51,590 nucleotides of DNA, taken from Fragilaria crotonensis (taxonomy: Eukaryota; Bacillariophyta; Fragilariophyceae; Fragilariales; Fragilariaceae). The notes under the pieces are model-generated. The model was not told where the DNA came from, did not search any database, and saw nothing but the letters and a program-made list of their open reading frames with translations. The DNA is taken from contig JAKSYS010000452.1 of the NCBI GenBank assembly GCA_022925895.1, forward strand, positions 1 through 51,590, in the 5' to 3' direction. Made by a program: the position numbers and the translations under genes. Below are positions 1 to 48,458 of this stretch, piece by piece (position 1 is the stretch's first letter; each line of letters begins with the position of its first letter).

Positions 1-61
1 GATAACGTATGTAAGCATCTTCAAACATTTATAACCCAACTTGCAACAACCGGCTATACCA

Positions 62-3000
62 TCATTGTCGCCTTATTCTGACCACTCCCAGTTCACAAGG
101 AGGAGTATGGTCGTTATCGCCTTTCTCGAGCCAGTCAGCCTTGGCCGCAGCTCCCCAACTCCTAAACAGTTCAGCTGCTTTTTTCTGATACAATGAGTAT
201 TTGGTTTTGTTAGGAGCTTCCCGACGAAAATACCTGGCAAGTCGTTCAATTGATAGTGCCTCGAAATATCTACATCGTGTGGCGGCACACGCAGACGCCG
301 CTTTCTCAAACAGTATCTCAACTTGATCCGGTGGCAATTTCTTAACGCACAAACCCTCCATGGCTTGCAAAAATGTGCTCGGACCAACGAGCATGGTCGT
401 TCCAGTAGTTGCCCACTTCTCAACCCGACGATGGCCTCGGCGGCCATCCCGTTTGTAATGACTTATCCCCGTAGCGAGATACAGGTCATAGTTGCAGACT
501 GCACACCAGGTGAACATGAATCCCGTGGTAAAGTATCCTTCGACCTCCTTTTTGTATTTTTCCACAATTGGCAAATGGATTTTGATGACCTGCAAATCAT
601 CATACACAAAGCCCATAAACATCTGACAGCGACTCACATTGATCACTGCCACCTTGGAATCCATTCGATACACCTCACGTTCAAATTCATCATCGACAGC
701 TTCGCCCTTTAAAATCGCAGGATTCGTGTTGCGCGAGTCACCACATATATTCAGAAACTTCAACGAGCACGTTAGTTCAAGCATAAAGGTTAGCGGGCAC
801 ACTACACAGAGCAATCCGAAAATATATACTTACAACTTGCCAAACCGGCAGAAGGAACATCAATGCGCGACTCGTCTGAAATTCTCGCATTTCCTGAACC
901 ACTCGCCTCGTTGTGGAGTTCAATTCCTCCAGAAAATCGTCAAGGTATAAATTGGCAGCCACCCAGGCAACAAAACCATTTTGTGCAATGACCACGTGCC
1001 CATAACTCATGGCCAAGTAATAGGCGTTTAGAAATTCGCGTCTCGAACTGGAATCCAGCACATTTCTCCAAAAGTGATTCATGCTATAGCTGGCGATAAG
1101 GGCCGACCCCCGGACAGACTCCGCTTCATACTTGTTAACAACGGCGAAAGCGAGCTGTTCAGCTTGCAGTGCGATATCAAACTTGCCCAAAAACGCATGC
1201 ATAGACCCCCAAGCGACAAATGCCCCAGGGGAATGAAGCGGAGATATGCCGAACATGAGCGTTAGACGAAACACCCGCAAGCTGAGCATTGCATACATTC
1301 CTTTATACAACCCGCCCAACAAGTAGCAATCGATTGCCATGGCATTCATGAGGCTGAACGCCAAGATTATTGTCTTATCTGTCATTTCAGGAAGAAACAA
1401 TAACTCGTGGAGTGACCTCCTACCCATCAATGCCTTCACCCTCACCATCTCAGTCGCGATAACCAATTTATCAATCCTTCGAGGAAACTTGACTCCCAAC
1501 TGTCGAAGCACTTTCAATCCAAGTATGACAGAACCCTTTAGGTCCCCTTGAAGCGATACGGAAGCCATTTCCACGGCACCTGCAATAGCGTGGTCATAAG
1601 CGGAGGTTGCTCGGACCTGAATCTCCTTCACCAAGACGCTGCTACGTGAGTACACTCCTGCATTCTTCTCAGTTTCGGCGGCCAACAAAATACTTCAATA
1701 CAAAGGTCATATCGATCGTCCCACAATGAATCGTTACCCTGAACAAGCGACACTGCGATTCGAAGATAGTCAGCCGCTGCGCCGAACGCTGCCTTCTCAA
1801 TCGCTAGTTTGGCAGCTGCCAAGTTCAGTTCAATCAGGTCGCACCTTGAACCCGAGTACTCGATGAGGTGGACCGCTCGATTCAGATTGTGCGCCGCCAA
1901 GAAAACATTCCAATCAGAAGTCTGTGACTTGGCCGTACCTTTACTGAGTCCCAAATTAAGGTACCAATTCGCTGGTGCAGCAGCTGTCGCTCCATTTCGT
2001 CAGGCATGAGAGTTTCATACAACACTTCTTGAATCTTGTCATGCGCAAACTTAAAATGATCAGGATCTGGCATGGTCTCTAACAGTCCTGCGTCAACCGC
2101 CATATTTAATGCAAAAGCGATGCGGTCGCGAATCACTTCCTTAGAATGTCGCTCGAACGAGTACGTCGCTTCAACCATATCCTGCTCCTCGTGTACAATC
2201 ATCACCAGGGCATCTGCAGGAAAGTCATTCCCGACAAAGGACGCAATTTGTACTATTGATCGTACCTGCTCCGGAAGATCACGCATTCTCAACGCCAGAA
2301 TATCAACAAGGTTTTCCGTCACGTTTGTTTCTCTCAAGATTCGATCCGTGTCCCAAGTCCAGGTGCCATCGTTCCCTCGCCAGAGCATACCATTCCGGTG
2401 TAGCATGTCAAGAAAATTCAGAGCGTGGAACGGGTTGCCATCGGTCTTATTCCAAAGAACGGTACTCAGCGATTGCGTAAGGAGGCTATCGATTCCAAGC
2501 GTTTCAGATATAAGCTGGTTGAATGAATTTCGACCCAAGCCAGCAATAGTTATATCACTGATTCCAGAACTGTCGGTAGACAACAGACGAGATACGGCCG
2601 AGTCTTCGGCGTCCATACTTCTACACTCAGCGAGGTTGTACTCCTCCAATTGCTCAGCCGTCATTCCTTCCTCGCGATACGAACACATGATCATGATGCA
2701 ATGCGATTCTCCATTGGTGAGTAGCGTTTTCAATACCTCCAATGATGGAACATCAGCCCATTGCAAGTCGTCGAGAAAGAAGACCAAAGGTGTTTCCGGA
2801 GATGCCACACATCGTAGAAATGCTCGAAACATGAGCTTGAATCGGGTAAACATCTGAGCACCGCTGGCACCGGTGTGGCGACCGCTACTGCCATCCTTTG
2901 CAGTCATTTCGGACAACGTTTGAACCACATTTCCCAACAAATTGATATCCGGACCAAGAACAGCTCTGATTTTGTCGCGTATTTCAATACTGTTTTGACG

Positions 3001-3435
3001 TCGCATAATTTGGTGGCAGAGCTGATCGCATGCTGCAGCAAGTGCCGCGTACGGAGCACGCAATTGAAGTTGATTGAATTTTCCTTCCATGTGGAATGCA
3101 CCTTCCGGGAGAGAATGGATGAAGAAGTGCGCGAGAGCGGTCTTTCCAACCCCTGGTGGTCCATGAATCGTTACGACTGCCGTCGTTTTCATCGTTGCCA
3201 CGTCATCATAGCAGTCGCGAAGCTGTTGCAGTTCCTTTTCCCGCGCCACAATGATGCGTTTGCTCTTCAAAACGGATACGAATTGGTTATCATCTCGAGT
3301 ACTACGAAGTTTGCGTGTCGATAATGACGCCACTCGCTCGCTCTCATCACCTGTTAATGGCTTTTGTTGAAGGTTTCTCACATAGCTCGTCAATACCGAG
3401 CGGCAAGGCGTTCTGTTTTCCATTGCTTCACTCAT
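62..3435 (-). CDS. AAA-type ATPase with helical-repeat C-terminus (COG3899-like), two apparent frameshifts
   Basis: Large signalling-type ATPase. The ATG is at 3435. Residues about 92-99 form a Walker A (GPPGVGKTA) and about 216-228 a Walker B (PLVFFLDDLQWAD); a winged-helix-like region and helical (TPR-like) repeats follow. The C-terminal motif LFRSWGAAAKADWLE is the one that, in COG3899 proteins, precedes GAF and histidine kinase domains, but the protein stops soon after it. No N-terminal kinase domain is present. One canonical intron lies at 833-758 (GTAAGT...AAG, 76 bp, phase 0). The frame breaks twice, near 1945-1955 and near 1687-1695. Both breaks are repaired by adding one base beside a short homopolymer, giving about 1099 residues. 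I read this as one gene, broken either by assembly errors or by early decay. The family is clear; the ligand or partner is unknown. Confidence 0.75.
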
Positions 3436-5120
3436 TTCTGGAACGACGCAAAATTTGGGCCTGCGTTTTACTTCTCACCTGACGACTGTCGATTGTCGAT
3501 TCAGCATGTGCGAATGACTGATATTGAGGTGGTCGATGTGAGATCGTATAATAATCTGTAATCTGATGTCTATCCTAATGTCAAAACATGTGTACAGTAT
3601 ATGATGCATGCCTCTGTGCTATAAATAGTACTACTATGGAAGTATTCGTTTCGTTGTCATACGTCACACTTACAAAGTTGTACGTACGTTGTACTGGAGT
3701 ACATTGTATGATACATTGTTAAAACAGTCAATGAGAACCATGGACCATGACCCGACACATTAATTCTGTTCCTGTATGATTTGGCGAATTTCGACAAAAT
3801 AATCCATGACGCACATGAGCAAATAGGAAAATGCCTCGTTCACGTCGGCCAAGTATGTGGTATCCATGTATCGATACATGTACGCGTGCCTTCAACGTAC
3901 TACGTCGCCCACAAGATGCGCATGTCTCGCCTATAGTAGAGATCAGAGATAAGATTCCAGAAGTTCTAAGTCTTGAGTGTCATGGGCTCGTTGTATCAGC
4001 GATTACGTCGAATCAACACAGAATGCCAAGTGTCGCAACCAATACAAAGCACGCGTCATTCCAGCAAAAATTAACATCCAGAAAGACCGGAATTGTTTCA
4101 TCAGCCCTAAGCGGTTTCTGTCCTGTCAATCACAGGCGCCCATCAGAAAGAGACATTTACGGCGTCACTCTCATGAACGCTTGTTAACCTGCAAATCCAA
4201 GGCCACGTGGAGAATGGGACCAGAAGCATTCCTCAAGGAACTTAACCAAGTAATCAAGCATGAAACAGTATTGGATTTAGACAAAGTTTCAATGGTATTT
4301 TGCAAGCACGCATCACGAACGGTTTGTCTCAAAAATGAAATCTGACGCGAGGACACGCGCAATGACAGGGAAAAAGGCGGCTAGTCAATCTTGTTGAATT
4401 CTTTTCGATGCAGTGATTTTCACTCTCGCCGATATGCAATCAAGATGTACATGGAGCGGACGAGAAACAGCTACGACGTGTAGAAGCACATGCCGAGATA
4501 TCAAGGGAAATCCGAGAACTTTATGACGCGCAAACTCGAACGGAATCGCCCACCTCCCAGATACTCCTACCGCGAGAATAGGGGAATTGTCGAGCACAAC
4601 CACCCGAGCCTAGAGCTCCATGGAAATTACTCTATTTCGGCCATCAATGATGCACTAGCCGTCAAGATAGTGTCGTTGCCAGTATTGGTGCCAGATGGCA
4701 ATTATCCCTGACAAAGGCGTCCAACGCGTTGGTTGCTGACTTGTGGATTGGAGTGTAAAGTGGTGTAGTTTTTCGGAACATGGGCAAGATATAGAATTGA
4801 AACTCTACTAGATCTTGATCCCAACCTCAGTTCTGCCTTCTGATTTGGTAGCTGGTGGGCCTCGATGTACAGGCGCTGAACCTCTGCAAATCCATGGAGC
4901 ATTTCAGCCATACAGAACCTTTAACGGAATGCACTCACAGTATACGGAGTAAATGGTTCACATCAAACCCCCTGATGCGCGCATCCAACTCTTACGCCAC
5001 GTTTCTAGTCGTCGCCGATACGTGCGATTGCCTGGTATACAGTATACATGTCAGCATGCATGAAGACAAACAAGAACAATCACATATATGTTTGGCAAAC
5101 GATGGTTCGTTTGTTGACAT
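3436..5120. other. Intergenic, no gene supported
   Basis: About 1.7 kb between two genes. Short open frames exist around 3831-4345 and 4490-4711 but none has a recognisable domain, a good start or codon pattern. A stretch near 4445-4560 can be read as a charged helical peptide (DEKQLRRVEAHAEI) that soon hits stops, so it may be an old coding remnant. Confidence 0.5.
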
Positions 5121-6617
5121 TCATCCTGGCCTGACGAAGTGCCATTTACGTCGTGTCGACCACTGTTTCTGTTCCATTCTGTTCTGAAATGTCCAAAATA
5201 GAATGCTGGATGTCTTCTGTCCCTGACCCATTTCCACGACACGAGTCTCATATACCGGCATCAACATCCTGTCCACATTGTTGAGGGCTTTCAACAAGAT
5301 GACAAGATTGTCGCGGCGCGATACCAACGATGAGAACCAAAGACATTTTTTGGAATGCGTCGAGGAACGACTTTCATGAATATATTTCAAGAGGAATGCC
5401 ACTTCACCACCTGGACACCACAATTCCGATGCTCCTCCAGCAAAGTTGTTGGATCCACTAAACGAATCGGATGGAAGAATGCTCGATGACATGACCCTTG
5501 ATCCGGCAAGTCCGCTCTTCGTCTTTCTCTTTTCTTGATTGGCGTGGAGATTTTTGATCTTTCGAAGGCTTTCTTTTTGATAGGCCTCCTGGGATGTGTA
5601 AAACGGTGGATTGCACATGCAAAAATCGACATCTTCGTCATCGTCCATTAGAATGCCATCCAAAATGCGTGTCTTTTGCGTTTGCAGGCGAATGTCCACG
5701 ATCTTCTGCGTCTTGTAGAGAGCTCCCAAGGTGCTATCATCACCATTGGTGTTGCAGTTCTGGGAATAGTCATCATGACGGGCACGCTCATTATCGTCAT
5801 CATTATCATCAGCAAAAGCAGCGGAGGCAATCTGACGAGCGGCTGCTTGAGACTTTGGGTCAATCTCGGATGCTAAAAATGACCAACCGTAGAGTCTCGT
5901 GCCCAACAGTGGATAAATCATGCTGGCACCTGTGCCAATGTCCAAACCTCGGATGGTTGGTCCAACGGGCACGTTTGGAAAGCCAACGTGACTGTTTTTG
6001 TTTGTATGAGTATTACTGCCAACTGGGGTGTCATCGTCGTTGTGTATTGAGGATGATGATGCAAGAACATCGGCAATATGGTGTATATAATCTGCCCTCC
6101 CAGGAACTGGAGGAATGAGCGAGAATGGTAACAGATATTCTTGCCAATGTTGGATTCCATAATGATGCGCCAAGAGTGCTGCATTGAGAGTTCGAACCGC
6201 ATCAGGATCACTGAAATCAATGGTCAGTCTTCGATCGCCCTTAGTGGAGTGGCCAGGCCGAAGGAAGGGAGCAAGCCTTGGATATGCACGGCACAATTGA
6301 TCCATATCATAAGAGCCCTGAAAGATATTTCGTGGATGTAGATTTGATTGTCTCAATCTCTTTGTGTTCCTTTTATCTCCTGATTGGAAATCATCGGCGC
6401 GTGCATGTGTTTTGGCGTGGAGTTGATGGGTTGTGGCAACTCGAAAATAAATGAAATGTTTTGGGCCAGTGCTTCGTTGCTGCAGTGGATGGAACTCGAG
6501 TGGTGGTTGAAATGAAACACAGGGCGTAACTAAAGCGAGAACAATGGCAACTGTAGAGACGCGTCGCAAGGTGCGATTCTGTTGATGCGTAGTCGTCCAT
6601 GGCACAAGAGTACTCAT
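5121..6617 (-). CDS. METTL16/RlmF-type RNA N6-adenine methyltransferase, probably plastid-targeted
   Basis: S-adenosylmethionine-dependent RNA adenine-N6 methyltransferase of the METTL16/RlmF family. In residues counted from 6617: LTIDFSDPDAVRTLN at about 131-145, PPVPGRADYIHHIADVL at 169-185, the SAM loop LDIGTGA at 225-231, and the catalytic NPPF at 336-339. All are family hallmarks, in the right order. The frame is open upstream to 6890, but the ATG at 6617 gives a hydrophobic signal peptide ending TPCVS|FQPP. That is the diatom ASAFAP-type bipartite plastid presequence with Phe at +1 (residue 36), followed by a basic, hydroxyl-rich linker. I therefore choose 6617 (498 residues). A bacterial-type role, adenine methylation of plastid large-subunit rRNA, is an inference. 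An acidic, Asn-rich insert lies at about 268-300. The frame is uninterrupted. Confidence 0.85.
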   Translation of the reverse strand: MSTLVPWTTTHQQNRTLRRVSTVAIVLALVTPCVSFQPPLEFHPLQQRSTGPKHFIYFRVATTHQLHAKTHARADDFQSGDKRNTKRLRQSNLHPRNIFQGSYDMDQLCRAYPRLAPFLRPGHSTKGDRRLTIDFSDPDAVRTLNAALLAHHYGIQHWQEYLLPFSLIPPVPGRADYIHHIADVLASSSSIHNDDDTPVGSNTHTNKNSHVGFPNVPVGPTIRGLDIGTGASMIYPLLGTRLYGWSFLASEIDPKSQAAARQIASAAFADDNDDDNERARHDDYSQNCNTNGDDSTLGALYKTQKIVDIRLQTQKTRILDGILMDDDEDVDFCMCNPPFYTSQEAYQKESLRKIKNLHANQEKRKTKSGLAGSRVMSSSILPSDSFSGSNNFAGGASELWCPGGEVAFLLKYIHESRSSTHSKKCLWFSSLVSRRDNLVILLKALNNVDRMLMPVYETRVVEMGQGQKTSSILFWTFQNRMEQKQWSTRRKWHFVRPG

Positions 6618-7176
6618 GATCTCGATCCTTTCACCATTGTCCGCATGCCAAATAGCCGTCCATCGGTGTTGCACGTAAAATGGAATCATGATATGATTCA
6701 TGAGTCGTGAGTCACGAGTCTGCAAATATTCAACCCGACGCAATCGAGCTATTTCTCGTTGTAACAGGTACGCATACCTCGTACTAGAGTCTGGCGAATG
6801 CTTGGGATTTGGGATTGCCAAGGGTATGTGGATGAGCGACGGAACCTGTATGAGCGACCTTGGCTTCACTGCGTTCCTTAATAGCAACATGGCGTTGACC
6901 TACGGCTCCGAAGCTAGTTTCCGGGAGCAGGTCGAGCCTCCATCTTACTTGCAACGCTGCCAATGGAACTTGCCGAAGATTACAGTTGCACGGTCTGACA
7001 TGCGAAGGATTCAAGAGAACCAAATCGCACCTCTAATGTGACATTTTCCTACATTAAGACAGCTCCTGGTAGTCATCCACTACACTCACACCATCACACA
7101 CACTCTCATTACTTGCTACCGTTCTATCCTAGGCGCCACCGGCCCCCGTACATTTACACCCCAATATCAAACTCCT
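6618..7176. other. Intergenic between methyltransferase start and ASH2-like stop
   Basis: About 560 bp expected to hold the promoter of the methyltransferase and the 3' end of the ASH2-like gene. An open frame at 6700-7041 on the plus strand has no recognisable features. A CA-rich stretch lies near 7082-7110. Confidence 0.4.
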
Positions 7177-8529
7177 TTAACTCGACTGGTCCAAATCATT
7201 GGTCGACAAATTGCGCGCCTCACGTTGTTTCCTTACATCTTGTACATGTTGCTGATAATGTTGCTGGTACGCTTCATTCCGAATCTCAGCCTCTGCCATC
7301 ATGGCCTCTTCCAACGCCTTGACGAGTGCATCATCCGTTTTTCTTGGCAATTTCGAAATCCTACTGGCCAGAATCTCCTTCATCATATCCATCGATGGCG
7401 GCTTTTCACACAACTCGCTCACTGGTTTGACCTTGACACCATGCGGCAATTTGCGTGGATTGTACACAAAGTGTGGTCCAAAGTTGGCCCGTACGGATCC
7501 ACCCAAATATACCGAAATGGCAGGATAGTACATGCCCTCGGCAATGTCTTCGAATGCCGCTCCGCCTTCACGTTTGCCACGTGACAATATCGAATGTCCC
7601 ATGGCCGCGCCATTGCGGAAGAAATAAATCTGATTTGATTTTTCTTTTTCGACGGATGCTGAATTTGCATTCGATGATGAAGCTGTTGTTGATGGTGGTG
7701 ATAATGAAATGGCAAAACCAACGACATCCCCAGGACCGTACGGTTCACTTCCCCAATCATCATCACGTTTGGAATTGTGGACACGACTTCCGGATATATC
7801 ACGATACCCATAAGACCACTTGTCATATCCGACGGGTGCCTGCAAATCACCCAATCTCATGGACCAACCAATCCGAGTATGACCTCCGACTGTTGTTGGT
7901 GTGGATGTCGTGTTTTTAGCAATAGTACTAGTACTGCTACTAGCCTTTGATTTTTCCAGTTCTTCAATCGCCTGCAATTGTGCCTTGAGTTTGGGTGCGA
8001 GTCGGACATGTGGTGGCAATAGGGCCTTGATCTCATCGACCGTCGGTCCTGGTTGGATCCAGCATTCGAAATAGTACTCTCCCGCCTGTACCCCGTGTGA
8101 GGCACGACAGGTGCGATACCCACGCATACCACCCTTGAGGGTAAAAAAGTTTTCAATTTTCAATTGTGGAGCCGTGTCGGCTTTCGACAGATGGACCATG
8201 GGAGGTGTCTCTTGAACCATCTTTTTGGAGGATGCTGAGACTTGAGCTGCAGTTGGGATAATGCCAGAGGCAATTGAAGTTTGGACGTAGGGGAAGCCAG
8301 CGGCAGCTTGTGAGAAGGCAGGAATTAAGGTTTGAGGGATGGAGGGAGTGTCGAGTGTGGGGGATAGTCGGCGTTTCTTGTTGCTTGTGCTCGTAGTGTT
8401 GGTGTTGCTGAGGACTGGGTTGGCGTTGCTGTTGACAGGAGGAACTTGCTCTTGCGATTGTTCCATGTCGTGCCCTGAAACAACCGTGGAAGGCAGTGCC
8501 TCAGCACTAGAAGGAGTCACAGTCGCCAT
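7177..8529 (-). CDS. ASH2-like SPRY-domain subunit of a COMPASS-type histone H3K4 methyltransferase
   Basis: 450 residues, single uninterrupted frame, ATG at 8529. The first about 115 residues are low-complexity, Ser/Thr/Pro-rich and contain a basic KKRR stretch that could act as a nuclear signal. A SPRY domain follows: GYRTCRASHGVQAGEYYFECWI, then HTRIGWSMRLGDLQAPVGYD with KWSYGYRD, then YGPGDVVGFAISL, IYFFRNGAAMG, and MYYPAISVYLGGSVRANFGP. The LGDLQAPVGYD, GDVVGF and NFGP blocks are typical of ASH2L rather than of general SPRY proteins. A Lys/Gln/Ser-rich insert of about 40 residues splits the domain. The N-terminal PHD/winged-helix part of animal ASH2L is absent. The ASH2 role in H3K4 methylation is known from the family. 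It starts 400 bp from the divergent UCH gene. Confidence 0.85.
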   Translation of the reverse strand: MATVTPSSAEALPSTVVSGHDMEQSQEQVPPVNSNANPVLSNTNTTSTSNKKRRLSPTLDTPSIPQTLIPAFSQAAAGFPYVQTSIASGIIPTAAQVSASSKKMVQETPPMVHLSKADTAPQLKIENFFTLKGGMRGYRTCRASHGVQAGEYYFECWIQPGPTVDEIKALLPPHVRLAPKLKAQLQAIEELEKSKASSSTSTIAKNTTSTPTTVGGHTRIGWSMRLGDLQAPVGYDKWSYGYRDISGSRVHNSKRDDDWGSEPYGPGDVVGFAISLSPPSTTASSSNANSASVEKEKSNQIYFFRNGAAMGHSILSRGKREGGAAFEDIAEGMYYPAISVYLGGSVRANFGPHFVYNPRKLPHGVKVKPVSELCEKPPSMDMMKEILASRISKLPRKTDDALVKALEEAMMAEAEIRNEAYQQHYQQHVQDVRKQREARNLSTNDLDQSS

Positions 8530-8927
8530 TGTGATTACTACGAGGCGAGCGATCAGTGATCAAAGTGGAGTGTGTCTGAAATGATAAATTTGTTGACAGT
8601 TGGTTTTGGCTCTTTCGTATTGCGAAGTCTGCGGACACATGAAGTAGTGGGAGTCGGACTGTTCGATTCCTACACCAATCGCTACGGAAAGCACTGTTAC
8701 TGTATGCGTGGATATCAAGATCTGATCAATTTCGCAGTGGACATCTTGGACATTCAATACTCGTGTACAGTACCTGTACCCGAAGTATTCGAGTACTGCA
8801 ATACTGGCACTCTAGGATCAAGTACTGGTACCTGGTACTCCCAGTACAGTATTTACGAGTACATCGGACCAGAACACAGGAGCCACACACGCACACACAC
8901 GCACACTCACGCAACATTCGATTGACA
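8530..8927. promoter_or_regulatory. Shared upstream region of two divergent genes, GTAC-rich
   Basis: The 398 bp between the divergent ASH2-like and UCH genes must hold both promoters. No core promoter element is obvious. Between about 8762 and 8866 the tetramer GTAC recurs about nine times, often as AGTACTG/GTACC, far above chance. An imperfect CA repeat (about 8885-8912) lies directly before the UCH start codon. Confidence 0.5.
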
Positions 8928-9686
8928 ATGACGGACGCAACTGCCAACATGAGTGACGACAATGACGGTGAAGGCGAAGACATTTTTCACTGGCCTCCAC
9001 TCGAATCTGATCCTTCCATCTTCACACAGTATTTACACAATATTGGTCTGTCTGACGAATGGGAAATTGGTGAATGTTATGGATTGGATGAAGACTGTTT
9101 GGGTTTCATCCCCAGTTCCTGTGTGGCCATGATTGTCAATGCAGAACGCTTGAACAAGACTTTAGAACGAGCAAAGGGTGATGAAGCCATGGGACTTCGC
9201 GCTGATTTTTATATGAAACAGAGCAACACACTCGATAACGCCTGTGGGATTATTGCCTGTCTTCATGCCATTTTCAATAATTTACAAACGGTATCTGTGA
9301 TTGAACCCAATTCAGTATTGGCCAACTTTTGGAATCAAGTCAAGAATCAGACACCACAAGAACGTTGTCAGACCCTAGAATCATCAAATGAATTCAAAAG
9401 GGTTCACAAATCGTATGCCATGCAAGGACAGAGCCATTTGGCATCCTCACAGGAGGATGTCAATCATCACTACACGGCCTTTGTTGTTCTAACCACTCCC
9501 GGCTACGACAATAACAACAGTACTCGTCGGTTGGTGGAATTTGATGGCACCAAACGAGGACCACTTGTCGTGGCCGACAATGTGGAAAGCCTTGTTCACG
9601 CTACGGCAGCCGAACTACAAAGGAGATTGCAAGAGGGTGAGATTTCAGAAAGTCTATCGGTCATGACCTTGGTCAAACGTTATTAG
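8928..9686 (+). CDS. Ubiquitin C-terminal hydrolase (UCHL3-like, peptidase C12)
   Basis: Cysteine protease that releases small groups from the ubiquitin C-terminus. It starts at the ATG at 8928; the upstream in-frame ATG at 8763 would add a CA-repeat-encoded tail that is not family-like. 252 residues, close to the usual 225-240. It opens with WPPLESDPSIFTQYLHNIG, the UCH N-terminal signature. The active site is complete: Gln98 (oxyanion hole) in MKQSN, Cys106 in LDNACGIIACLHAI, His181 in NHHYTAF, and Asp206 in VEFDGTKRGP. An extended acidic loop precedes the His. The frame is intact and has no intron. It ends 167 bp from the convergent helicase gene. Confidence 0.93.
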   Translation: MTDATANMSDDNDGEGEDIFHWPPLESDPSIFTQYLHNIGLSDEWEIGECYGLDEDCLGFIPSSCVAMIVNAERLNKTLERAKGDEAMGLRADFYMKQSNTLDNACGIIACLHAIFNNLQTVSVIEPNSVLANFWNQVKNQTPQERCQTLESSNEFKRVHKSYAMQGQSHLASSQEDVNHHYTAFVVLTTPGYDNNNSTRRLVEFDGTKRGPLVVADNVESLVHATAAELQRRLQEGEISESLSVMTLVKRY

Positions 9687-9853
9687 CGCACAGTACAACA
9701 ACAATATGATGAAAACCACGCGACGTTAAACTACCATGGCTTCACAAAACGAAACCTTATATGTAATACTTGGAATGCTCGACTACCGTTGAGTGTGGAG
9801 ACCACTAGAATATACTTCCATTAGAATTCCAGTAACCCTTACTGATCTCCTCC

Positions 9854-11713
9854 CTATTCAACTTTCAGTCCTCGTACACCCTTGAGACCCATCTTCCCAA
9901 CGGTCTTCTTCAGCAAACTGGGCTGTTCCTTCAAACCAACATCCTTGGCCCACTGATTGGCAAAATGAACAAGATCATCCTTACTCCAATTCACCTTTTT
10001 CGTATGACCATTGTAAAATCCAAGCCACGCACGGTACGCCTGTTCGGCAGACGCCGTCAATTCCTTATCACGAGAAACTCCCGCCAATGCATCTTGCAAA
10101 TATCCACTGCTCTGACTTGTGGTTGGCACTTGCGCACTGACAAGTGGCAAATCATTCAATTGTTGTCGCATCCATCGTTCTTCATAGTCCGCCACCAGGA
10201 GCGCTCCCTTACCGGCCTTGCCGGCACGTGCCGTCCGTCCCAATCGATGAATGTATTGAGCACGTTCGGTCAATCCCACCTGCAATACAAATGACACGTC
10301 AGGATAGTCCATGCCACGCGCCGACACATCGGAGGAAAAGAGGACAGCGTTTTTGGCACTCCGGAATCGATCCGATGCCTTTTGACGAATCGATTGAGAT
10401 TTGCGAGAATGAATTTCCAAGACGGAATATCCCAATTTGGAAGATTGGCTGTTGAAGAGATCGGCCATGAAACCAGTGAGACGGGCAGTTGTGAAAAAAA
10501 CAATAATCTTGTAGTTGGCATTCTGACTGGTATGCTCTGCCAGGATCTGTTCCATTGCCGCGATTTGCTGGTCCTGTGTCGTCACCAACAGGTCCTGCTG
10601 AACGTGCATATGTGTGTGCTCTTCGTCCTCGCCGACAGTATCAATGTAATCGTAATCCTTCTTCATGGACAAGGCGGCAATGTCCGAAACGGACGCGGGC
10701 ATGGTCGCGGAGAACAGCAAGGTTTGACGAGTCGCCTTGGATGGTTCCAAGAGTTTGAGAATCTTTTCTAAATCAGGACGAAATCCTTGATCGAGCAATT
10801 GATCACATTCATCAAAAATCAAAATTTTCATCTTCTGCAACCTTTGCGCGAGTCCAAAATTTTGCAAATGATCCAAGAGACGACCTGGAGTTGCCACCAA
10901 GATTTGAGTGCTCAATTTGAGAGCACGATGGTCTTTTCCAATAGTGGTACCTCCCACAATGGCAACACTTGTCATGTTGGAATGAAATTTGGTGAGACTC
11001 TCTGCCTCGGTTTGAATCTGAAAAGCAAGTTCGCGAGTGGGTGACAATACAAGACATGAAATATCATTGGGGTTGAGTTTGAATTTGGTCAAGAGCTCCA
11101 CGGCTGGAATGAGAAAGGCCAGCGTCTTTCCAGTTCCAGTCTTGGCGCGAGCCAACGTATCGGCTCCCTTGAGAATGCCATGAATGGTCTCCGCTTGCAC
11201 CACCGTCATGCATTCGTATTTAAACACCTCGGCCATGGCGCGTTTCGTCAAATTTGAAATGGGAAGGTCGGCAAAACGTTGATTGGTAATATGTTTTTGG
11301 GTACCTTCGGATGCTGGAGCAGGAACGGAAATGATGGCATCAGACATGTCAGTGTCTTCCTGAGTATCCTCCGCTGAAACATGCTTGTATCGACAGTCAT
11401 CACCACGAGGACATGATCCATTCTGATCAAAGGCACGGCAAGTTTCTGACGAGGGAGCATTCACTCGACGGGGACGTTTGGTAATGGGACCTCCAGCGGC
11501 TGTCCCATCATCGTGCTTTGGTTTTTCCTTGCGGTCTCCTTGGTCATTGGCAGATCCGTTGGTCGCTGGAGGCCTTGTGTTGTTGTTGTTGCTGTTGCTT
11601 CGTCCTCCTCCACCTCCTCGACCCCCTCGTCCTCCACCACGTCCACGTCCTCGTCCACCACCACGGCCCCTTCCTCTGCCTGGGGTGTTGCTACTGCTGT
11701 TTGGTTCACTCAT
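9854..11713 (-). CDS. DEAD-box-family RNA helicase (DECD box) with RGG tail and CCCH zinc finger
   Basis: ATP-dependent RNA helicase, 619 residues, intact. Residues 12-37 are a GRGRGG-rich RNA-binding tail. Residues 92-111 form a CCCH finger (C-X8-C-X5-C-X3-H). The helicase core follows: Q-motif region RFADLPISNLTKRAM, motif I AKTGTGKT (about 190-197), SPTRELAFQ, VATPGRLLDH, motif II DECD (301-304), SAT (335-337), SSDVSARGMDYPDV, and motif VI HRLGRTARAGKAG. The core resembles the Mss116/plant RH25-RH31 branch. DECD instead of DEAD is tolerated in some helicases. There is no clear organelle signal. The role could be nuclear/cytosolic RNA remodelling; the substrate is unknown. Confidence 0.92.
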   Translation of the reverse strand: MSEPNSSSNTPGRGRGRGGGRGRGRGGGRGGRGGGGGRSNSNNNNTRPPATNGSANDQGDRKEKPKHDDGTAAGGPITKRPRRVNAPSSETCRAFDQNGSCPRGDDCRYKHVSAEDTQEDTDMSDAIISVPAPASEGTQKHITNQRFADLPISNLTKRAMAEVFKYECMTVVQAETIHGILKGADTLARAKTGTGKTLAFLIPAVELLTKFKLNPNDISCLVLSPTRELAFQIQTEAESLTKFHSNMTSVAIVGGTTIGKDHRALKLSTQILVATPGRLLDHLQNFGLAQRLQKMKILIFDECDQLLDQGFRPDLEKILKLLEPSKATRQTLLFSATMPASVSDIAALSMKKDYDYIDTVGEDEEHTHMHVQQDLLVTTQDQQIAAMEQILAEHTSQNANYKIIVFFTTARLTGFMADLFNSQSSKLGYSVLEIHSRKSQSIRQKASDRFRSAKNAVLFSSDVSARGMDYPDVSFVLQVGLTERAQYIHRLGRTARAGKAGKGALLVADYEERWMRQQLNDLPLVSAQVPTTSQSSGYLQDALAGVSRDKELTASAEQAYRAWLGFYNGHTKKVNWSKDDLVHFANQWAKDVGLKEQPSLLKKTVGKMGLKGVRGLKVE

Positions 11714-12629
11714 TCTCGTTTGGTCAATTCAGTTCTGGATGAAAGGGCGATATGGGTCTTTTCTTTAGTATTCAGGGAATTTGTGAGAAGGCATTGGATG
11801 ACCGCTATACTGGTCGTACACACCTTTTACATGTTCTCCGTTCTCCCATACCCTCGGACTTCGGACTATGCATACGAATCGTCACATCAACATTTTACAC
11901 ACTGGTGGTCCCTGTCAAGCCTTGCCTCTTTCTGGTCTTGTTTCGACCGCAAGCGTCTACCAAGTACTGTACCGAAGTGGCTCACAGGGTCACCTGTCAC
12001 CCTGTCTGTCACCAGTCACAAGGGTCGTCTGTCGGGTAAGGGCACAAGGTTGCGTGGTACTGGTACAAGTACCACGTAGGCGGGCAGTACTTCGACTCCG
12101 ATACTGCTACTGTACGGATGTATTACTTGCAAGCAAAGTGCTCCTCACTGAGGAGCACATCCTAAGTATATTCAGTATACAGTTTTTAGGGTTTGGAAAC
12201 TGCGAAAGTGTTATAGTACTGTGTACAACATACTGTACATAGAAAAATTTGTACGATAGGTACTGTAGTACGCATCACCGTATTCTAGTACTCGAACAAC
12301 CGTGCTACCGGCACGGAAAAAGAAAGGCGTGTATTCCAATTTTCTATTTAGAATACGAATATATCGCATATCGGATCTATTTGTCGTCAACGACTCTGTT
12401 CTTCATTCAACGCTCTCGGAGCTCGGAGTAGGGGTCTACATAGCCGTACTGGCAGACCTATTCGCATTCGCAAATGACAAAAAATCAATCCTACAGCCAC
12501 GTTTCGTATGGATAATTCTGTAGCACATCATGCGAAGCACATCAGGAGTAGCACATATACTAATAATACTACTACATCGTAGTCTCTAGGGAGTACAATT
12601 CAATTACGGGCACACACGCCATAATCATC
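11714..12629. promoter_or_regulatory. Divergent intergenic region, helicase and fucosyltransferase promoters
   Basis: 916 bp between two divergently transcribed genes. It contains several GTAC-rich patches (about 12055-12115 and 12215-12295) and no supported coding region; open frames here have no recognisable features and poor composition. Confidence 0.45.
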
Positions 12630-14859
12630 ATGACGATGAGCGATCCCCGGAATGCCGCCGTTGCGGCGTCTACTCGAAATAAAGTTACATCCGAACCGCA
12701 GCAGCAACAACAGCAGCAACAACAAGAACGTGCGAAAGGAGGTTCCGTCATGATGAATTACTTTTTGGCCATTCTAGTGGTCTTTGGAAGTGTTCAATTC
12801 TATTTCAACTTTCATCAAGACAGTAATGTCGATCATCAGATGGATAGCATTGAAGCATTTCAGCGAAATCATTTTATTAAATCGCATTCTCTTGCGAGAG
12901 TTAAGGGCGACTTGAAAACGTTTCTTATGAAGGATCTGAAGGAGCCTAAAGCTCGTAGTGATCATCATGTCCATCTTGCGGCGGTGGGAATCAAAGGAGG
13001 TCAAGGACACAAACAACAACAACAACAACAACAGCAACAACAACAACAACAAGAAAAAGAAGAACAAGAAGATGAAGAACGAGAATTTGATTACCGAGAA
13101 CAAGATATCGATAAACATTATCTTGCAGGATTGAGTTGCGAACGCTTTGGAGGTCCATCAGACGAAGATGCTGCGGAAATGGTCTTCTGGGAGGATATTC
13201 CTTCCGACAGTCTGCACATTTCTCCGTTTCAGGACCCAAAGCGAAAGCAATACCTCACCTTTGAAGCTGATCATGGTGCGTATGGTTGGGAACTATGTTT
13301 CGGCTACTATTGATTTTTGTATTGATTATTGAACTCACTCATGCACTGCCCTATCGTTGACAGGCGGTTGGAATAACATTCGCATGGCCATGGAAACCAC
13401 CATGACCATGGCCGTCGCCATGGGCCGAACTCTTGTATTACCACCAGCCCAAGGCATGTACCTTTTATCCAAGCCCAAGTCAGAACACACTGGAAAAGAA
13501 CAAACCAAGGACTTTACGTTTGCGGACTTTTTTCACATGGAAAGTATTGCCGATGAACATGTGGGCATGGAGGTTATCACTATGAAAGAATTTCTGGAAC
13601 GAGAGGGATTGACTGGAAACTTGCGAGATCAAAAGACCGGAGAGGTTGTGTTTCCTCCTGGGAATCGAACCGACTATGATGGTGCCGATCACCAAGCGAT
13701 ATCCAAGACGTTGGAGGCGTATTTGCAGCGAGTCGGCATGGTGCCACCTTGGGATCCGGAAGAATGCTTGGCAGCATTCCCAGCCTCAAAAGATCCAAAG
13801 GACGTCAAGCCATTGAAAAGATGTTTGAGGACGTCAAAACGTTCCCATCCTATACGCACTTTATCGGAAACCCCGTTCCTGTCAATGGAACTGCCATTGA
13901 TCGATTGAAGGAAAATCGAGCGGATCGCAAGGAGCTCTGCATTTATGATGAAAAGTGGCAAAATGTGCAGCTCATGCACTTTTCAGAAGGAGCCGAAGGG
14001 GAGGTGGGAGCACGACTGTTGGTGCATTTCTATGCGTTCCTTTTCTTTCAGGATTGGAAACACGATTTGTGGATGAAGCGTTTTGTTCGAGATCACGTTC
14101 GTTATATTGATGAAATTCAGGTACGTCGCATCGCTACGGTGTTGATGAGCATTGCGTGATTCCCATATTCCTCACACCTCAAATTATTCTACTCCTGGTC
14201 GCGGTCATTGTTTGTCTTGGATGCCATATTAGTGCGCTGCTGCTCGCATCGTGACAGAACTACGGGCCAGGTCTCGCGCCAAGGGCGATGCCAACGGGGA
14301 CTACAATGCCTACCATATTCGGCGAGGCGACTTTCAATACAAAGACACCCGGTATGAGGCACCCCGCATTATCAAGAATTCGGCCAAGGAGATGACGACG
14401 GGCGGTCTTGTCTACATTGCATCGGATGAGAAGGACCAAACATTCTTTCAGCCATTCAGAGAGATCTATGATGTTGTCATGTTGGATGATTTCAAACATT
14501 TGCTGGTGGGCGTCAATACCAACTATTACGGCATGATTGATTCGTTGATTGCCTCGCGATCAAAAATCTTCTTCGGATGTTGGTTCTCAACGTTTACTGG
14601 ATACATTAATCGACTACGCGGTTTCCACAACAACAAACGAAAGGGGCCTGGGTACGAGATGGGATATCATTCGTCCTACTACTATGCCCTCGATGACCGC
14701 AAGTATCACATTCAGGAATTCTATCCCGTCAAGAAGTCATTCTACGCTCGTGAATTCCCCACGGCATGGCGACTTATTGATGAGGGTATTCAAGAACTCG
14801 CAGAGGCAGACGCAACATCCAATGTAGAGGGTGGTGAAGGAAGCAAAGCAGCACTGTAG
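12630..14859 (+). CDS. O-fucosyltransferase-like type II membrane glycosyltransferase, one apparent frameshift
   Basis: Exons 12630-13275, 13364-14120 and 14233-14859; introns 13276-13363 (GTGCGT...CAG) and 14121-14232 (GTACGT...TAG). A short cytosolic tail with poly-Gln is followed by one membrane anchor (YFLAILVVFGSVQFYF), a second poly-Gln/Glu stretch, then the lumenal enzyme. Family marks: YLTFEADHGGWNNIRMAME spanning intron 1, MGRTLVLPP, the nucleotide-sugar motif HIRRGDFQ, then IASDEKD and the C-terminal MIDSLIASRSKIFFGCWFST. This matches the GDP-fucose O-fucosyltransferase fold, working in the Golgi/ER. The frame breaks once at the AAAA run 13788-13791; one added base restores it and gives 676 residues. 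The donor is presumably GDP-fucose; the acceptor is unknown. A broken copy of its last exon lies at 28.7-29.2 kb. Confidence 0.85.
13002..13055 (+). repeat. CAA/CAG repeat encoding poly-Gln
   Basis: In-frame CAA/CAG run coding about 14 Gln in the stem of the fucosyltransferase. A shorter run (about 10 Gln) sits at 12698-12728. Such stems vary in length between alleles. Confidence 0.85.
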
Positions 14860-15097: not shown

Positions 15098-15170
15098 TCA
15101 ATCGTTGATCCTGTCAAACTCTTGATGGCACTTGAGTACCACCACCGTCAGATATCGAAAAATCCAGATA
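15098..15170 (-). pseudogene. Orphan last exon of a Pcc1-like gene
   Basis: Preceded by a CAG acceptor at 15173-15171, it reads IWIFRYLTVVVLKC then HQEFDRIND and a stop. This matches exon 2 of the Pcc1-like gene at 29488-29557 except for an extra Val and two changed residues. The matching first exon is absent: upstream of about 15235 the sequence is unrelated. It is therefore the decapitated copy of a duplicated gene. Confidence 0.7.
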
Positions 15171-32980: not shown

Positions 32981-32984
32981 CTAT

Positions 32985-34587
32985 TCATGGATTGACATGG
33001 CAATAGTCAACGTGAAACTCAACCCGAGTCTCATCAGATATAATATCATAGTAATGATGTCCGAAATCTGTGTCTAAGGTCTTGATCGTAGCAGCTTCAC
33101 TGAGTGGAAGCTGAATCCAACGCCGACAACGTGGCTCAAGCACGGTAAGGTAGTTCTTGCAGAATGCATTTCGATGTGCGACAACATCTTCACGTTCATG
33201 GCCATCGACGTAGAAGCTCTTCCTTCTCGTATCATACTTGAATCCGAGTAATCGCATCCAGCGCCATGCTGTTGTGAAGCTCATGTTTTTAAGTCTATGT
33301 GCGCGAAGGAATAGCGCAATATCATCCTCATCTTGATCGACATCGACAGGATTGCTAGTAGGATTAATGGCTGTAGTACTTGTACTCAATGTTGACGTTT
33401 CTGCAGTATCTTCGTCTACTACCGATTCACGTTTCCACAACGCAGCCAGCCTTGGGATTACAGACGAATGAACGAATTGATAGACTGCTTCAATTGAAAG
33501 ATGTGACAAGTTCTCGACGCCAAATGCAACAATCTGCTCCTTTGCGCATGGAAACACTTCGAGAACTCGAGGAAGAGGTCGTTTCCCACACTGAACAGAC
33601 AAGTTTGGGTTTGGGAAGCATTCAAAATTACGGAACACAATGTTCCAATTTGCGATGGTTTTATAGAAGGTTGCTTGCGTCATACCAACAGTGTTCAATA
33701 CCTTACAAGATTCAGTGCAACAGTCTTGCCACGTCCATTCATTCATTTTGCAAGAGCCAATCGGTACGCATAACAAAGAAACGTCGCCCTTTGCCTGACA
33801 GCGCATATCTCAGCTTTGGTACACACGTTGTCGATATCTCTACCTTGCACAACATTCCTCCAATTATTTTCTTCCTCATGAACGCTTTGAAGCAGTACAA
33901 TCCTTCTCTGAAGTGCTTCCATTGGAGTTTCAGAATCGAAATCAGTATCATTCCCATCCTCGCAATTCGTTGTCCCATGTTTCTTTGGTGGTTTGAACAC
34001 TCGGTATGCCTCTGGGCTACATGGCCAGTAACTTGAGCTAGAAGCATCAGCAGCAATCATTACAGCGGCCGCACCAGTATCTCCTATCCTTGCTCGTTTG
34101 CTCGGTGATTGCTCAACAATGTCTCGATCCTTCCTCCCGTTGTAGCCTCCGTGTTGACAGGTGTAGTTATCATTGTGTCGAGAGCGGGTCTTGATCTTGT
34201 GCTTGGAATGACTAGCACATTTGCGGCTGCTTCCATTACTTTTTCGTTCCATGCACTGTTAAGTGGACATGGGTACCGTATCTGCCTTGATTTCTCTGTG
34301 AAGTAGTAATAGAATGTGTTCTTGTATGTGACTCTGAACACTCCTGTTGTGTTTGATCCATCAAATCGGTGCATCAATTCTCCGAAAGAAGCCGACTTGG
34401 ACATCCCTGTATTGAACCTTCTTACATCAATGACGCCAAGGGACGCATTGACATCAAATCTCCCTAAAGCTTCAGCCCAAGTTGATGCAGGAAGCCAGCA
34501 ATTTGACAATCTCGGACCATACGTGATGTCTGTTCGAAGTAGCATGACGGCATCAGTCAAAATAGCATATTTACCTTTGTCAACCAT
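32985..34587 (-). pseudogene. Truncated IS630/Tc1-like transposase with unusual N-terminal region
   Basis: Three frames join: 34587-34084 (LRTDITYGPRLSNCWLPAST, GVFRVTYKNTFYYYFTEKSR), 34252-33743 (Ser-rich, nuclear-type KRAR) and 33806-32985 (helical N-terminal, TTAWRWMRLLGFKYDTRRKS, FYVDGHEREDVVAHRNAF). The last block matches WMNTVGYKYGVWKKGIFIDG and HERTDVV of the complete element at 36.1 kb, so it is the same broad family. It stops at SDETRVEFHVDYCHVNP, just after the region of the first catalytic Asp; the rest of the nuclease is missing, where the CK2 sequence begins. The first about 170 residues are unlike the neighbour element and I do not recognise them. Confidence 0.65.
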
Positions 34588-42532: not shown

Positions 42533-43622
42533 TCATCCCTCCAGCTCCATTTGGAGCAGTCGCGTTTCTCGTTCCAACATCTCGTGTCGTGAGTGGCCTT
42601 CTTGTTGGGCTCGCAACGTAGCGGAGGTTGCCCCCATCTTGGCAACAAGTTGCTTGAGCCCTTTGCACTGGCAGACAGAGGTCAGACAACGCGCCGCTTG
42701 GTGAGCAGTATGCAAATCATTGTCGGTCAAGTCCGCGATCAATGTTCGAATCAACTCGTCCGATACCAGGTCTGCAGGATGGCTCAACGCCAAGGAGTTT
42801 GCCAATACTGTAAGGGCATCGCGGCGGAGCATAGTAGCAAATGAATCGTCTTCATCAGGTCGCATAAGGACAAGATTGATAATAATGGTCAATTGATCTC
42901 CGAGGGGTACATTTTCACTCAGCTTGACGAGATTCTGCACGCCCAATAGTTTAGAATCGACTCGGTTGCTCTTCAGTAAATCGAAGGAACGTTCCATCAC
43001 TTCGTCATTGACCTTTGTAGTTTCCTCGCGATTCCGAATAACATCAGGAACGGTAAATCGTTGCATACCACGACGACATGGTTCTTCCCTTTGGCAGCTC
43101 TCAAGACTGCCTTGGAACACTGATGAAAGGTGTAGGAACATCCAGTCCTTCGCTGAACCTCCACGATAAGTTGATGGTCGTCTTCAAAGAGCTTGATATA
43201 GAATTGAGTGTGGCAAGCAGTTTCCGCAACGGCTTTGTTCTAATCCACGAACAACAGCACCAGAGAGGTGAGTGAAATTGCATTGAAATTTTCCAAGTCG
43301 TGTGGAGTCCCATTAATTGCGTGAGGGATACTTACATCGTCAAAGCTCGCTGTGATCGACTGCGTTCGCAGGCACTCAGCGATGCGCTCTGCAATCTCAA
43401 GTGCGTCCGCATCTGGGATCGACACATGTGATCGCTCTAGCATGTATACCTCAGGAAGCTTGGGAACATTGCAAGGTTTCCACGAGCTTCCTGCGTGCGA
43501 TTTAATACTGGGTACCACGTACGATAGGCTCGAATGAGGCTTCCTGATTTGGAATTGAATTGCAAACTGCTTCGTGATGGAATTGATGGGGCCTCAGCTG
43601 ATCGTATCAGTACAGATCGCAT
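42533..43622 (-). CDS. Unknown protein with C-terminal ARM/HEAT-like repeats, two apparent frameshifts
   Basis: ATG at 43622; intron 43335-43240 (GTAAGT...TAG, phase 0). One base added near 43508 (AAA) and one near 43090 (GGG) gives 331 residues. The N-terminal half has VYMLERSHVSIPDADALEIA, ERIAECLRTQSITASFDD, then after the intron TQFYIKLFEDDHQLIVEVQR and RTGCSYTFHQCSKAVLRAAK, an alpha/beta domain of the KA1-like 'VEVQRR' type seen in uncharacterised diatom proteins. The second half has paired helices (SKLLGVQNLVKLSENVP, MLRRDALTVLANSLAL, DNDLHTAHQAARCLTSVC) like armadillo/HEAT repeats. No enzyme motif is visible, so a scaffold role is likely; the partner is unknown. Confidence 0.65.
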
Positions 43623-46600
43623 TTGTGGTACATCGGGGCGATATCATTGTTGTTTGGAATGGACATCGTGGATTCTTATTGAATTGTTTTCGAGAATATC
43701 GGCTTTTTTTTTTGTGTTGCTCCGGGGATGGACAACTGGTGCCCTTCTTCCGTTTCCTGGAAGTTCCCGTGGTTCGTATTCGTGAATTCCAAACTGACGT
43801 TCACTCGTACCAAACATCCTACTTCCGGGCTACTTTTGGAGTTGAGATTTGTCGTACAGTTTTCCGAGTACCAGGTACTTCAGTACTGCAGTGCTAGTAC
43901 GATGCACCTATGCCCGTACCTTGGGTTCACAACTGCGAGCTGCGAGCTGCGAGTGGATGGATGACGTAGCGGTACTGATGAGTATGGAGTACTCGTAGAC
44001 TCGTAGAACACCAATACTAGTTGTACACCATGACTACAGTACCGATTTTCTTGCCAGCAGCAGCCTTAAGATGAAAACCAGTAAAAATCGGTTAATAGCC
44101 CGAATGGTCTGTTGCGTGTCGTTGATGCGGATACCGGTACCTGGTAGATTAAGAAGGTGAAGGATTGATGATGAGAGATTGGAACCAGTTCAATCCATGA
44201 TTACAATGCACTAAATGAATGTTGTGATGGCCTCATTGTCTGTGATGCATGGCATGAGCTTGGTGGAATCCTCTGACTTCTCTCTTCCTGTGATTGGACA
44301 AGGGAGAAAGCAAAGCATAGGTGACAATTCTACTGTAGTAGATGTTAAACAATACATAAGGTTGGAGAGTCAGTCTGCTTAGTAAGTTGTTCCTTTACTC
44401 ATATCAAGAAGTCGGTTACATCTTTTAATAAATTTTCAAAAAATGACGAACAACCTGTTCACCAACCCAACCCAGAAATAAATTTCAGAACTCCCCATGA
44501 GCTCTCTTCATTCGACGTTCTGTTGCCTTCACTGTTGTTGTCCTGACAGTTGACAGTACAAGTACAGCAGTACCTTGTATCAACAACATAAAATATAAAT
44601 ATATGAGAACTTCGGTTTATACTGTAGAACTTGTAGAACTTGGAGTACTCCTCTATTCAAATACCACAGTACTCGAGTACACTTTAGTATAACAGTACTG
44701 GATGACTCCATTAGCCATGAGAAGCAGTAAAGACTCAACCGTAGTAGCTCTAAAATATTTATATCTGTCAGTATGTCAGTACACGTACGACATCTAGTAT
44801 TCCCCAGTCCACAGTACTGTAGTACGAATCAACTGGACTCGACTCTGTATAATTTCTCTGTGCGGTATGATATGTCGTATGGCTGGTTTCATCCTTTGGC
44901 TGAATATCGTAGCAACACGTACACTCAGTACTCTAAAAATTTATCTGGCGCAAAAGTTTTGGAATCAACCTCGTCGTTCGTCATAATTGTTACAATCCAT
45001 CCGTCATGGTAGGCGGTAGGCACAAAGCCGTAAACAAAGCCTGTATCAAAAGTTGACAGCTTTCATTTGTTGTAAATGCCTTGACACGGCGTTCGATTAG
45101 CGGAAGGGTGAGTTTTGTGCTTTAATCTGCCCTGTTTGTGCTCTCATGAATGATATGCGCCGACGTACCCTCTCGCTTGCCTGCCTTGAACACTTGCGGA
45201 GGACTGTCTCGGTTGTGAGAACTTCCCCTGCTTTTTGCATCTTTGACTAACGCCTTCAAATGTGTTCCTTTTTTATCGAAATCGATGCCTTTTTTCTCTA
45301 CTGGCACTAGGGAAGGTGCAGCGTTGTCGGTCACATGCTGCGGCATCGGCATTTCGACTCGTACCCTTCGGAAGACCTTCAGCGACTTGAACACCATCAT
45401 TGGAACTGACTTTTTGAAGGCGATGATTGCCATGGCTGAAGTTCTTAACACTGACTTCCTTGTTTTGAAGGCCTTTTGCAGCCAGCACGACCCTAATCTT
45501 GATGGTGCAGCAGCAAAGTGAAGCGACTTACACCTGATGTCATATGCAACAACAAACTGAGCAACGTTTCCTGACTAATCTCTGACCTCATGACTATGAT
45601 GACTATCATGAAGTATGCCTTTCATGAGATGCCATACTTGGCTCAATACCGCAAGCTCCGCAACGGTCATTGACTCCTATTGCCGGGTTGTGTATTGCTG
45701 TCTGTCATTGCAAGCCCTGCTACGTACCAGCTGAGTCAAACCATGTTGCCGGCGAACCCTACATTCTGGAGTGCAAGAGGAACGTTCAAAATCAGATGAT
45801 GAAGGTTCCAGCCTTTGAAAGCTCCAAGTACTCTGACGTTGCCGAGGATGGACACTAGATGAATGAATTTCCAGCAAAGCAATGTCGTGGATGATTTCAA
45901 GCTGACCATGAGTATATGCCCACTTCATCAACGTCTGCTTTCTATCAAACTCCTTTTTGTGGTGGAATCTTTTGTGGTCAAAAGTTATGCCACTGCATAC
46001 AACCTATTGAGGCAGGAGAGGACCACAAATGACAATCGCATGTAATATTAAACACAACGAGTGAAATAGTAGTGAAGCAGAGCACTTTTTGGTTCACTAA
46101 TACCGTTCATTTTATTCAGATGCTTCAAGCTGGGATGATGAGAACTCCAAATAGCGGGTAGCAGCCTTTCCTTATGTTTCAAGTGCGAGACTGAGTATAA
46201 CTCCGCACCTGATAGCTGATAGTCATAGTCAGGTAGTGTTTATGGTCGAGCAACTTTCTGAAGACCCCTGCTGAGGAATTCAGCTACGTTGTTGCATGCA
46301 ATCTGCTGGGTATGGGATACACACTTCTTGTTGGCTTTGGAAATGAATCACTTCAGGGGACGTATCCACGCCAATTGGCGTCCGGAAATGCATTCTGTAG
46401 AGCGAGAGGCGAACGTTTACAGCCATCATCGGAAGGACATCAGCAGTGGGTTCATTATGGCCGATCAGCCGGACCTTTCAGTTCAGGGGCCTAACCAACT
46501 TGATAAACGAGCTCTGAGTTCAAAAAGGTCCGGCTGATGAGGACTGGAAGACGATCAAATCGTCATTGCAATCTCATGGTCTCAAGATCGTTTTTTTGTG

Positions 46601-46912
46601 TGGTGCCACTCGTGTTGTTCGGAGGCGCGAGGATGCCGGATCGCATTTCACTCCATGACGTCAATGGATTTTGTACCATTCCTACACAACTTGTACTATA
46701 TGTAGTTTCTTGATGAAACCAGCCATACGGAGGAGAAGTACTGAGTGAGTGTAGCTACTCCGAATCCTAAAACGTTAAATGTCGGCAATCGCTAAAAAAG
46801 AATGCCTCCAAACTGATGGTGACACCCGAACCCAAGGAATGCTGATTTGCGTTGGATGAAAACGAGGGTATAACTACTGTACTCATAAGGTTCCTTCATC
46901 TGTGTATGGAGC
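43623..46912. other. Long intergenic region, GTAC-rich
   Basis: 3.3 kb with no supported gene. Dense GTAC motifs at 43855-44050 and 44555-44835. A diverged repeat near 44210-44310 is shared with 16660-16760. Open frames at 45243-45521 and 45670-45858 have no recognisable domain; 45660-46050 has a coding-like look (LLFVVESFVVKSYATAYNLL) possibly from an old transposase. Confidence 0.5.
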
Positions 46913-48458
46913 ATGACATCTCTTTTCAACTTCCCATGCTGCTACGACACGGCGATTGTGTCCCTTCGCTCTGACGACGATGAGAATGACACGACAACGA
47001 AAGAAACGTTTGCTCAACCTCCAAGCACAATAGACGCTGTTCTAGGGTACGTTCAAAATCTGGATACTCCGTGTACACCACATTGGGATCTGTATGACCA
47101 GCCTTAGACTCATTTGGTATGTTTCCCCTTTAGTTGGACTCTGGATGCAGCGGCTCGTGGAACAGTCATTATGGGAGGGGCTGTCTTCATCTCGACTGCT
47201 CTGTTAAAACTCGCGAGGGAGGCCGCAGGCTGTGTTGAGGAGAAGAATGCACAGGTCGAGTCTATGGCATGAGACCGTCTTCATTGTTGACGAATATTGT
47301 CACAATCGTTGGAATCCTGAGTGCAGCATCCATGCCGTTGGTGGGGCTATTATTGATCACACTACATACCGGCGGCAGGTTGGACGCGCATCGGCGTCAA
47401 TACTGACGACCCTTATTCTTGTGCAAGTGATACTACTGAAGCGCTTGTGGTTTGGAGCTGCTATCATCCAAATTTTTCTTGCGTTCACTTATTTCATTCA
47501 TTTGTGTGCATTGTATGCATACCTACCAGAACTGACGAACGATTCGAACCAACTTATCAAATATACTGGATGTTTCATTGCTTCTCAATATGCTTCGAGC
47601 GTTGTGTTTCTGCTTGTGATGGTGGTTCTGCTGGAAGTTTTCAATGTTGCCGACGTACTGACATCATCTTGGATATCTCAGTCTCTTGTCTTTGGCGTGT
47701 GTACACTGTTCTTTGGGTACGCGTGGACCCTCCTCTTTCCAGATCGGCCCGCGGCGCAGCAAGTGCCTGAAGGACAATCAATCCTGACGGCAGGCTTTAA
47801 CAAACTGTACGCCACGTCGCAAACAATCTGGTCGCATCATGACGCAATCAAATGGTTTCTCATTTCTGTGGCATTTGCCGAATCAGCTACTGCAGCATTT
47901 TCGTCCATTGCCATCACCTACATGACCGATCACCTTCATTTCTCGTCGACCGAGAATGGCATTGCAATTCTACTTTTGTTGTTATTCGGAATACCTGGTA
48001 CCAGAGTCGCCTCCATGTTTACCAATCGCTTCAATCCAATTCGTAGCTTGCAGCTCTGTCTCTTGCTTTGGATCGTGACAACGGCTGCTGCAAGCCTCGT
48101 ACTGCACGGGCAAGGTCAGCAATTGTCAGCCTACTGTTTCGCAGCGATATGGGGTCTTTCCACGGGGTGGGTGTATCCAACGGAAAAGGTGTTGTACTGC
48201 ACAATAATTCCCAAGGGCCAAGAAGCGGAACTGATGGGAGTCTACATTTGTGCTTGTCAAATCTTGTCGTGGTTGCCGCCCCTGGTCTTTACTATTATGA
48301 ACGAATCGGGCATTTCAATGAGAATTGGGCTATTGACGCTCAATGCCTACTTTCTTATAAGTTTTGTCATTCTCTTTTCGTTGGAGACTACCAGGCAGCC
48401 CTGGAGCACGCACAAGTTGCGGACTTGGATCGAAACCATGAACAACGAGCAGAAGTAG
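46913..48458 (+). CDS. Atg22/UMF1-like major facilitator transporter, two apparent frameshifts
   Basis: Vacuolar-effluxer-type MFS protein. Exon 1 46913-47046, intron 47047-47133 (GTACGT...TAG, 87 bp), exon 2 47134-48458. The splice joins AVL|GWTLDAAARGTV, the start of helix 1. Within exon 2 one base added near 47250 (AA) and one near 47346 (GGGG) restore VYGMRPSSLLTNIVTIVGIL, SAASMPLVG and AIIDHTTYRRQVG, the family's helix 2-loop. The total is 486 residues with about 11-12 helices and a short Lys-rich tail. Atg22 exports amino acids from the vacuole after autophagy; UMF1 relatives are uncharacterised. The long frame from 47232 alone would wrongly omit the first helix. Confidence 0.75.

Follow-up and report, generated by a model that had tools for sequence, protein, structure and literature searches.

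The PacBio FALCON assembly of the diatom Fragilariopsis cylindrus is locally diploid, with redundant contigs and with 745 primary contigs that amount to 59.7 Mb (PMC5634323). When this assembly was compared with Sanger fosmids, indels outnumbered SNPs in some of the clones (14 to 3, for example), but not in others (97 to 162) (PMC5634323). In documented small-genome cases, short deletions, many of them at runs of identical bases, make sound genes look like pseudogenes. Here we analysed a window of 51,590 bases, which is the whole of contig C395 in an assembly of 62.1 Mb in 881 contigs, and in which six genes are interrupted by frame breaks; the genes present suggest a diatom. As evidence we used other contigs of the same assembly (C24, C548 and C215) together with paralogues, instead of reads. 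Gaps were located against the other contigs by BLAST and by MAFFT alignment, and the counts quoted are those of BLAST. From these comparisons we consider it highly probable, close to certain, that the breaks are errors in the consensus of a long-read-type assembly and that the genes are intact in the organism.

The first-pass annotation had listed eleven breaks, each one base short. All eleven are present, and for ten of them alignment with other contigs shows the one-base gap directly. The remaining one, in a fucosyltransferase gene, was located by frame reading rather than by base-by-base alignment, and its size is consistent with one base lost (net, modulo three). A kinase gene that lacks its first exon (32211-32980, minus strand, low end approximate; Pfam Pkinase in the C24 copy), which we take to be CK2 alpha, has lost one base at each of 32306, 32398 and 32586, and C24 has one 257-codon open frame over the same stretch. 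A small protein that had been called a membrane protein (30588-31249, plus strand) has a one-base loss at 30933 and a 222-codon open frame in C24; a Pfam search gave no match for it. In an ARM/HEAT-like gene (42536-43600, minus strand, ends approximate), for which the Pfam HEAT_EZ match is weak and below cut-off, one base is lost at 43086 and at 43542. A third one-base loss nearby, at 43303, probably sits in an intron, and at all three sites both C548 and C215 are longer by one base. The Atg22-like transporter (46913-48502, plus strand; Pfam ATG22 in the C215 copy) is one base short at each of 47238, 47346 and 48374. The site at 48374 is a twelfth break that the list had missed, and the end assigned to this gene at 48458 belongs to a shifted frame, as C548 and C215 each run through as one 465-codon open frame. 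Other contigs of this genome thus support the proposal that short runs were under-called in a long-read assembly, as the kinase, small-protein, ARM/HEAT-like and Atg22-like frames are open at the break places in C24, C548 or C215. It had also been argued that the repaired lengths are multiples of three, which is no test, as any start-to-stop in-frame model meets it. The total length of the kinase says nothing either, because the contig changes locus near 33005 and the first exon is lost.

Window positions 25622-33002 were assembled twice, the other copy being C24:9685-17117. Between the two copies there are 12 substitutions and 25 differences in length, and in all 25 of the latter the window has the fewer bases (two-sided sign test, 6e-8). 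Here, where the shared sign of the breaks can best be checked, it goes beyond chance; no loss was seen in C24. The second alignment method gave 23 events within this block, again window-short in 23/23. Sixteen of the losses are of one base, seven of two bases, one of 5 and one of 17. Each of the 16 one-base losses is in a run of at least two identical bases, compared with ~43% of bases in runs, in line with the claim that the breaks nearly always fall at runs; the Atg22-like loss at 47346 is outside any run. Homopolymer under-calling likewise covers most of what we saw, as the losses are mostly at runs or tandem units, but losses of 2, 5, 6 and 17 bases occur too, and the distribution is patchy.

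The same sizes bear on programmed -1 frameshifting or insertional RNA editing, either of which could restore the frames. The coding breaks are alike in sign and size, which favours such a mechanism, but the losses of more than one base do not. Moreover, only four of the losses against C24 are in coding sequence (2.07 kb), whereas 21 of the 25 are elsewhere (5.32 kb), outside the three intact genes of the block, where 'elsewhere' takes in a GCN1-like fragment and a degenerate fucosyltransferase copy. Losses in non-coding DNA argue against recoding or editing, and the longer runs are present in the DNA of the other contig copies and of the probable allele. Recoding should leave breaks confined to coding sequence, with the base missing from genomic copies too; what we found instead were open frames in C24, C548 and C215. 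We give this explanation practically no credence, in agreement with the first-pass annotation, which had ranked it as less likely.

This block also holds several fragments and repeats. The fragment at 26118-26714, presumably GCN1-like, is interrupted in C24 as well as in the window, and a related copy on C876 (93% identity) has a longer open frame; amid the artefacts, this fragment is probably a true partial pseudogene. At 28737-29607, C24 and the window share a partial and degenerate copy of the 3' end of the fucosyltransferase; the copy contains an internal direct duplication. A MITE-like element of ~170 bases with weak inverted-repeat structure occupies 30135-30303 and has at least 36 other matches at 90-98% identity. 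A dispersed repeat of ~213 bases (25471-25685), with six others among the matches listed, straddles the left edge of the block at 25622, and this edge may mark an insertion or another misjoin.

From 33001 to its end at 51590, the window has a second copy on C548. Over these 18.6 kb, BLAST gave four substitutions and 67 length differences, with the window short at 20 and C548 short at 47, and MAFFT gave 65 length events (20 and 45, respectively) plus five equal-length events. One-base losses are in runs at 16 of 18 window-short and 27 of 30 C548-short sites (43/48 together, against ~43% of bases). A third contig, C215, covers much of this region at ~97-98% and is probably its other allele. In the three stretches shared with C215, to which this site comparison is limited, it overlaps 25 sites at which the window and C548 differ in length, and at 19 it has the length of the longer copy, at two that of the shorter and at four neither. 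At the eight window-short sites among these, in or near the ARM/HEAT-like and Atg22-like genes, C215 backs the longer copy at seven and is unclear at one. Six of the 20 window-short sites are in 2.55 kb of genes (one probably intronic) and 14 in 16.04 kb elsewhere; the density of these sites is higher in genes, an argument against an even spread. Together with the loss outside a run, the uneven density, the two sites at which C215 backs the shorter copy and the four at which it is unclear are among the points against reading the breaks as errors. The 1.85 kb repeat at 44878-46728, which is present in the window and C548, absent from C215 and closely matched on several contigs, is probably a young insertion polymorphism.

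If the breaks were real, the blocks from 25.6 to 51.6 kb might be recent duplicates whose genes, now pseudogenes and free of selection, lose bases through slippage. For all six broken genes there are indeed copies elsewhere that are unbroken at the corresponding places, and the GCN1-like fragment, at 26-27 kb, indicates that some decay is real. Decay, however, would give more substitutions than length changes. This is the pattern where the window and C548 agree against C215 in the three shared stretches (89 substitution events, 23 length events), yet between the window and C548 the ratio is 4:67 (Fisher p ~1e-24), and C548 is short as well, at its own 47 sites. In the kinase stretch 32588-32980, all six substitutions relative to C24 are silent, leaving 131/131 residues identical and suggesting that selection has kept the protein, while the length changes break its frame. 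Neither a predominance of substitutions between near-identical copies nor, in the kinase stretch, changed residues, as decay would produce, was found. Pseudogenes are therefore a very improbable explanation of the breaks, and consensus error remains the reading that we prefer.

The two blocks meet at 33001-33008, where the window switches from C24-like to C548-like sequence and where C24 and C548 each continue differently. Beyond the junction, C24 runs into a frame resembling the first exon of the kinase and C548 into other DNA. To judge from the contigs, the junction is probably a misjoin, because C548 and C215 are present already and the window would be a third copy with almost no substitutions; the window kinase is incomplete for a reason separate from the base losses. 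If instead a rearrangement had truly joined the kinase and C548 loci on one chromosome, the base losses would still be sequencing errors; this alternative is compatible with consensus error as the source of the breaks, and we regard it as unlikely. The six silent kinase substitutions hint that the window copy is something other than C24 reread, which speaks for a rearrangement. On the other hand, the near-identity to C548 over the whole of the second block, with C215 as the probable second allele, means that any genuine third copy must have arisen very recently. That the window is such a copy throughout, having lost bases from short runs by deletion only and gained almost no substitutions, seems to us extremely improbable.

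For two genes, only paralogues could be compared (~80% in DNA for the ATPase, 59% in protein for the fucosyltransferase), and their breaks are argued by analogy for this reason. The ATPase-like gene (123-3430, minus strand, ends approximate; Pfam AAA_16) has one-base losses near 1685 and 1942, and all five paralogues that were aligned have one more base at both sites. These five come from ten other long matches in the genome, at 70-81% identity, among those listed, and two of them, at C875:20101-23700 and on C38, are open over 915 and 917 codons. In the O-fucosyltransferase-like gene (12630-14859, plus strand; Pfam O-FucT), the single break is at ~13803-13830, where the frame changes between the overlapping open reading frames 13333-13908 and 13680-14159. 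Its paralogue on C64 (59% identical) has one 409-codon open frame across the break place. The pseudogene reading finds more room in these two genes, as the copies are paralogues only and three of the five aligned ATPase paralogues themselves have frames split into pieces. By analogy, the two ATPase breaks and the one fucosyltransferase break would nonetheless reflect the same error as elsewhere, with lower certainty.

The first-pass annotation had held seven unbroken genes against a uniform error rate. Six of these were checked, and their frames are open over ~7.6 kb. At the rate of the second block, 1.08 window-short sites per kb, a uniform rate would predict ~8.6 losses in 8 kb of unbroken genes (P(0) ~2e-4), and we rejected it. 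Genes without a near-identical copy have three coding losses in 12.3 kb (~0.24 per kb), whereas genes that were assembled twice have ten in 4.6 kb (~2 per kb); the contrast has a one-sided p of ~3e-4, or ~8e-4 without the probably intronic loss at 43303. Here, 'without a near-identical copy' refers to the matches listed for window positions 1-8000, 8900-15700, 15700-21700 and 21600-25700, with 8001-8899 outside. One unbroken gene, at 27243-27908, is the same in C24, and comparison of a 1.33 kb stretch with its 95% copy on C680 showed no one-base loss in the window. At 21695-22864, a DDE_Tnp_4-type transposase frame adjoins retrotransposon-like pieces.

As controls, we compared five contig pairs over 5-8 kb each, chosen from kinase matches of the same score, with C854/C143 and C218/C56 left out. 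The error signature was seen in C428/C768 (four substitution events, 35 length differences) and C194/C462 (two and nine). Two other pairs, C9/C584 (65 substitution events, 11 length differences) and C627/C301 (103 and 51), resemble pairs of alleles. C33/C147 was mixed, with 47 substitution events and 48 length differences in one stretch and 87 and five in the next. These last three pairs weigh against the error reading. The signature is thus present in two of five control pairs and partly in a third, and this split indicates that the fault is patchy and is found beyond C395 too.

Overall, these data suggest a model in which the assembler or polisher under-counted bases in C395, mainly in short runs and tandem units. 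Under-counting would give errors that share one sign, many of which shift the frame by one base. C395 would be a redundant, probably misjoined copy of DNA that is also on C24 and C548, and its duplicated part may have received few reads, or little or poorer polishing, with reads shared with these two contigs. The part without a near-identical second copy may have been corrected better, which would explain the unbroken genes between 5 and 12 kb. We infer that long-read technology was the source of the errors.

The pattern is most likely an ordinary sequencing and assembly fault and no biological feature. Claims of gene loss, pseudogenes or frameshifts from redundant contigs of this assembly should be checked against a second copy or reads, and the same caution applies to users of the assembly who consider gene order across the junction at 33 kb. 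Even without reads, such questions can largely be settled from duplicate contigs and a probable allele. The breaks resemble the small-genome cases, in which sound genes likewise appear as pseudogenes through short deletions; those were judged from raw reads and references, whereas here a eukaryote was judged from duplicate contigs. The assembly itself is like that of F. cylindrus in being locally diploid with redundant contigs, with 881 contigs and 62.1 Mb here, and 745 primary contigs and 59.7 Mb there (PMC5634323).
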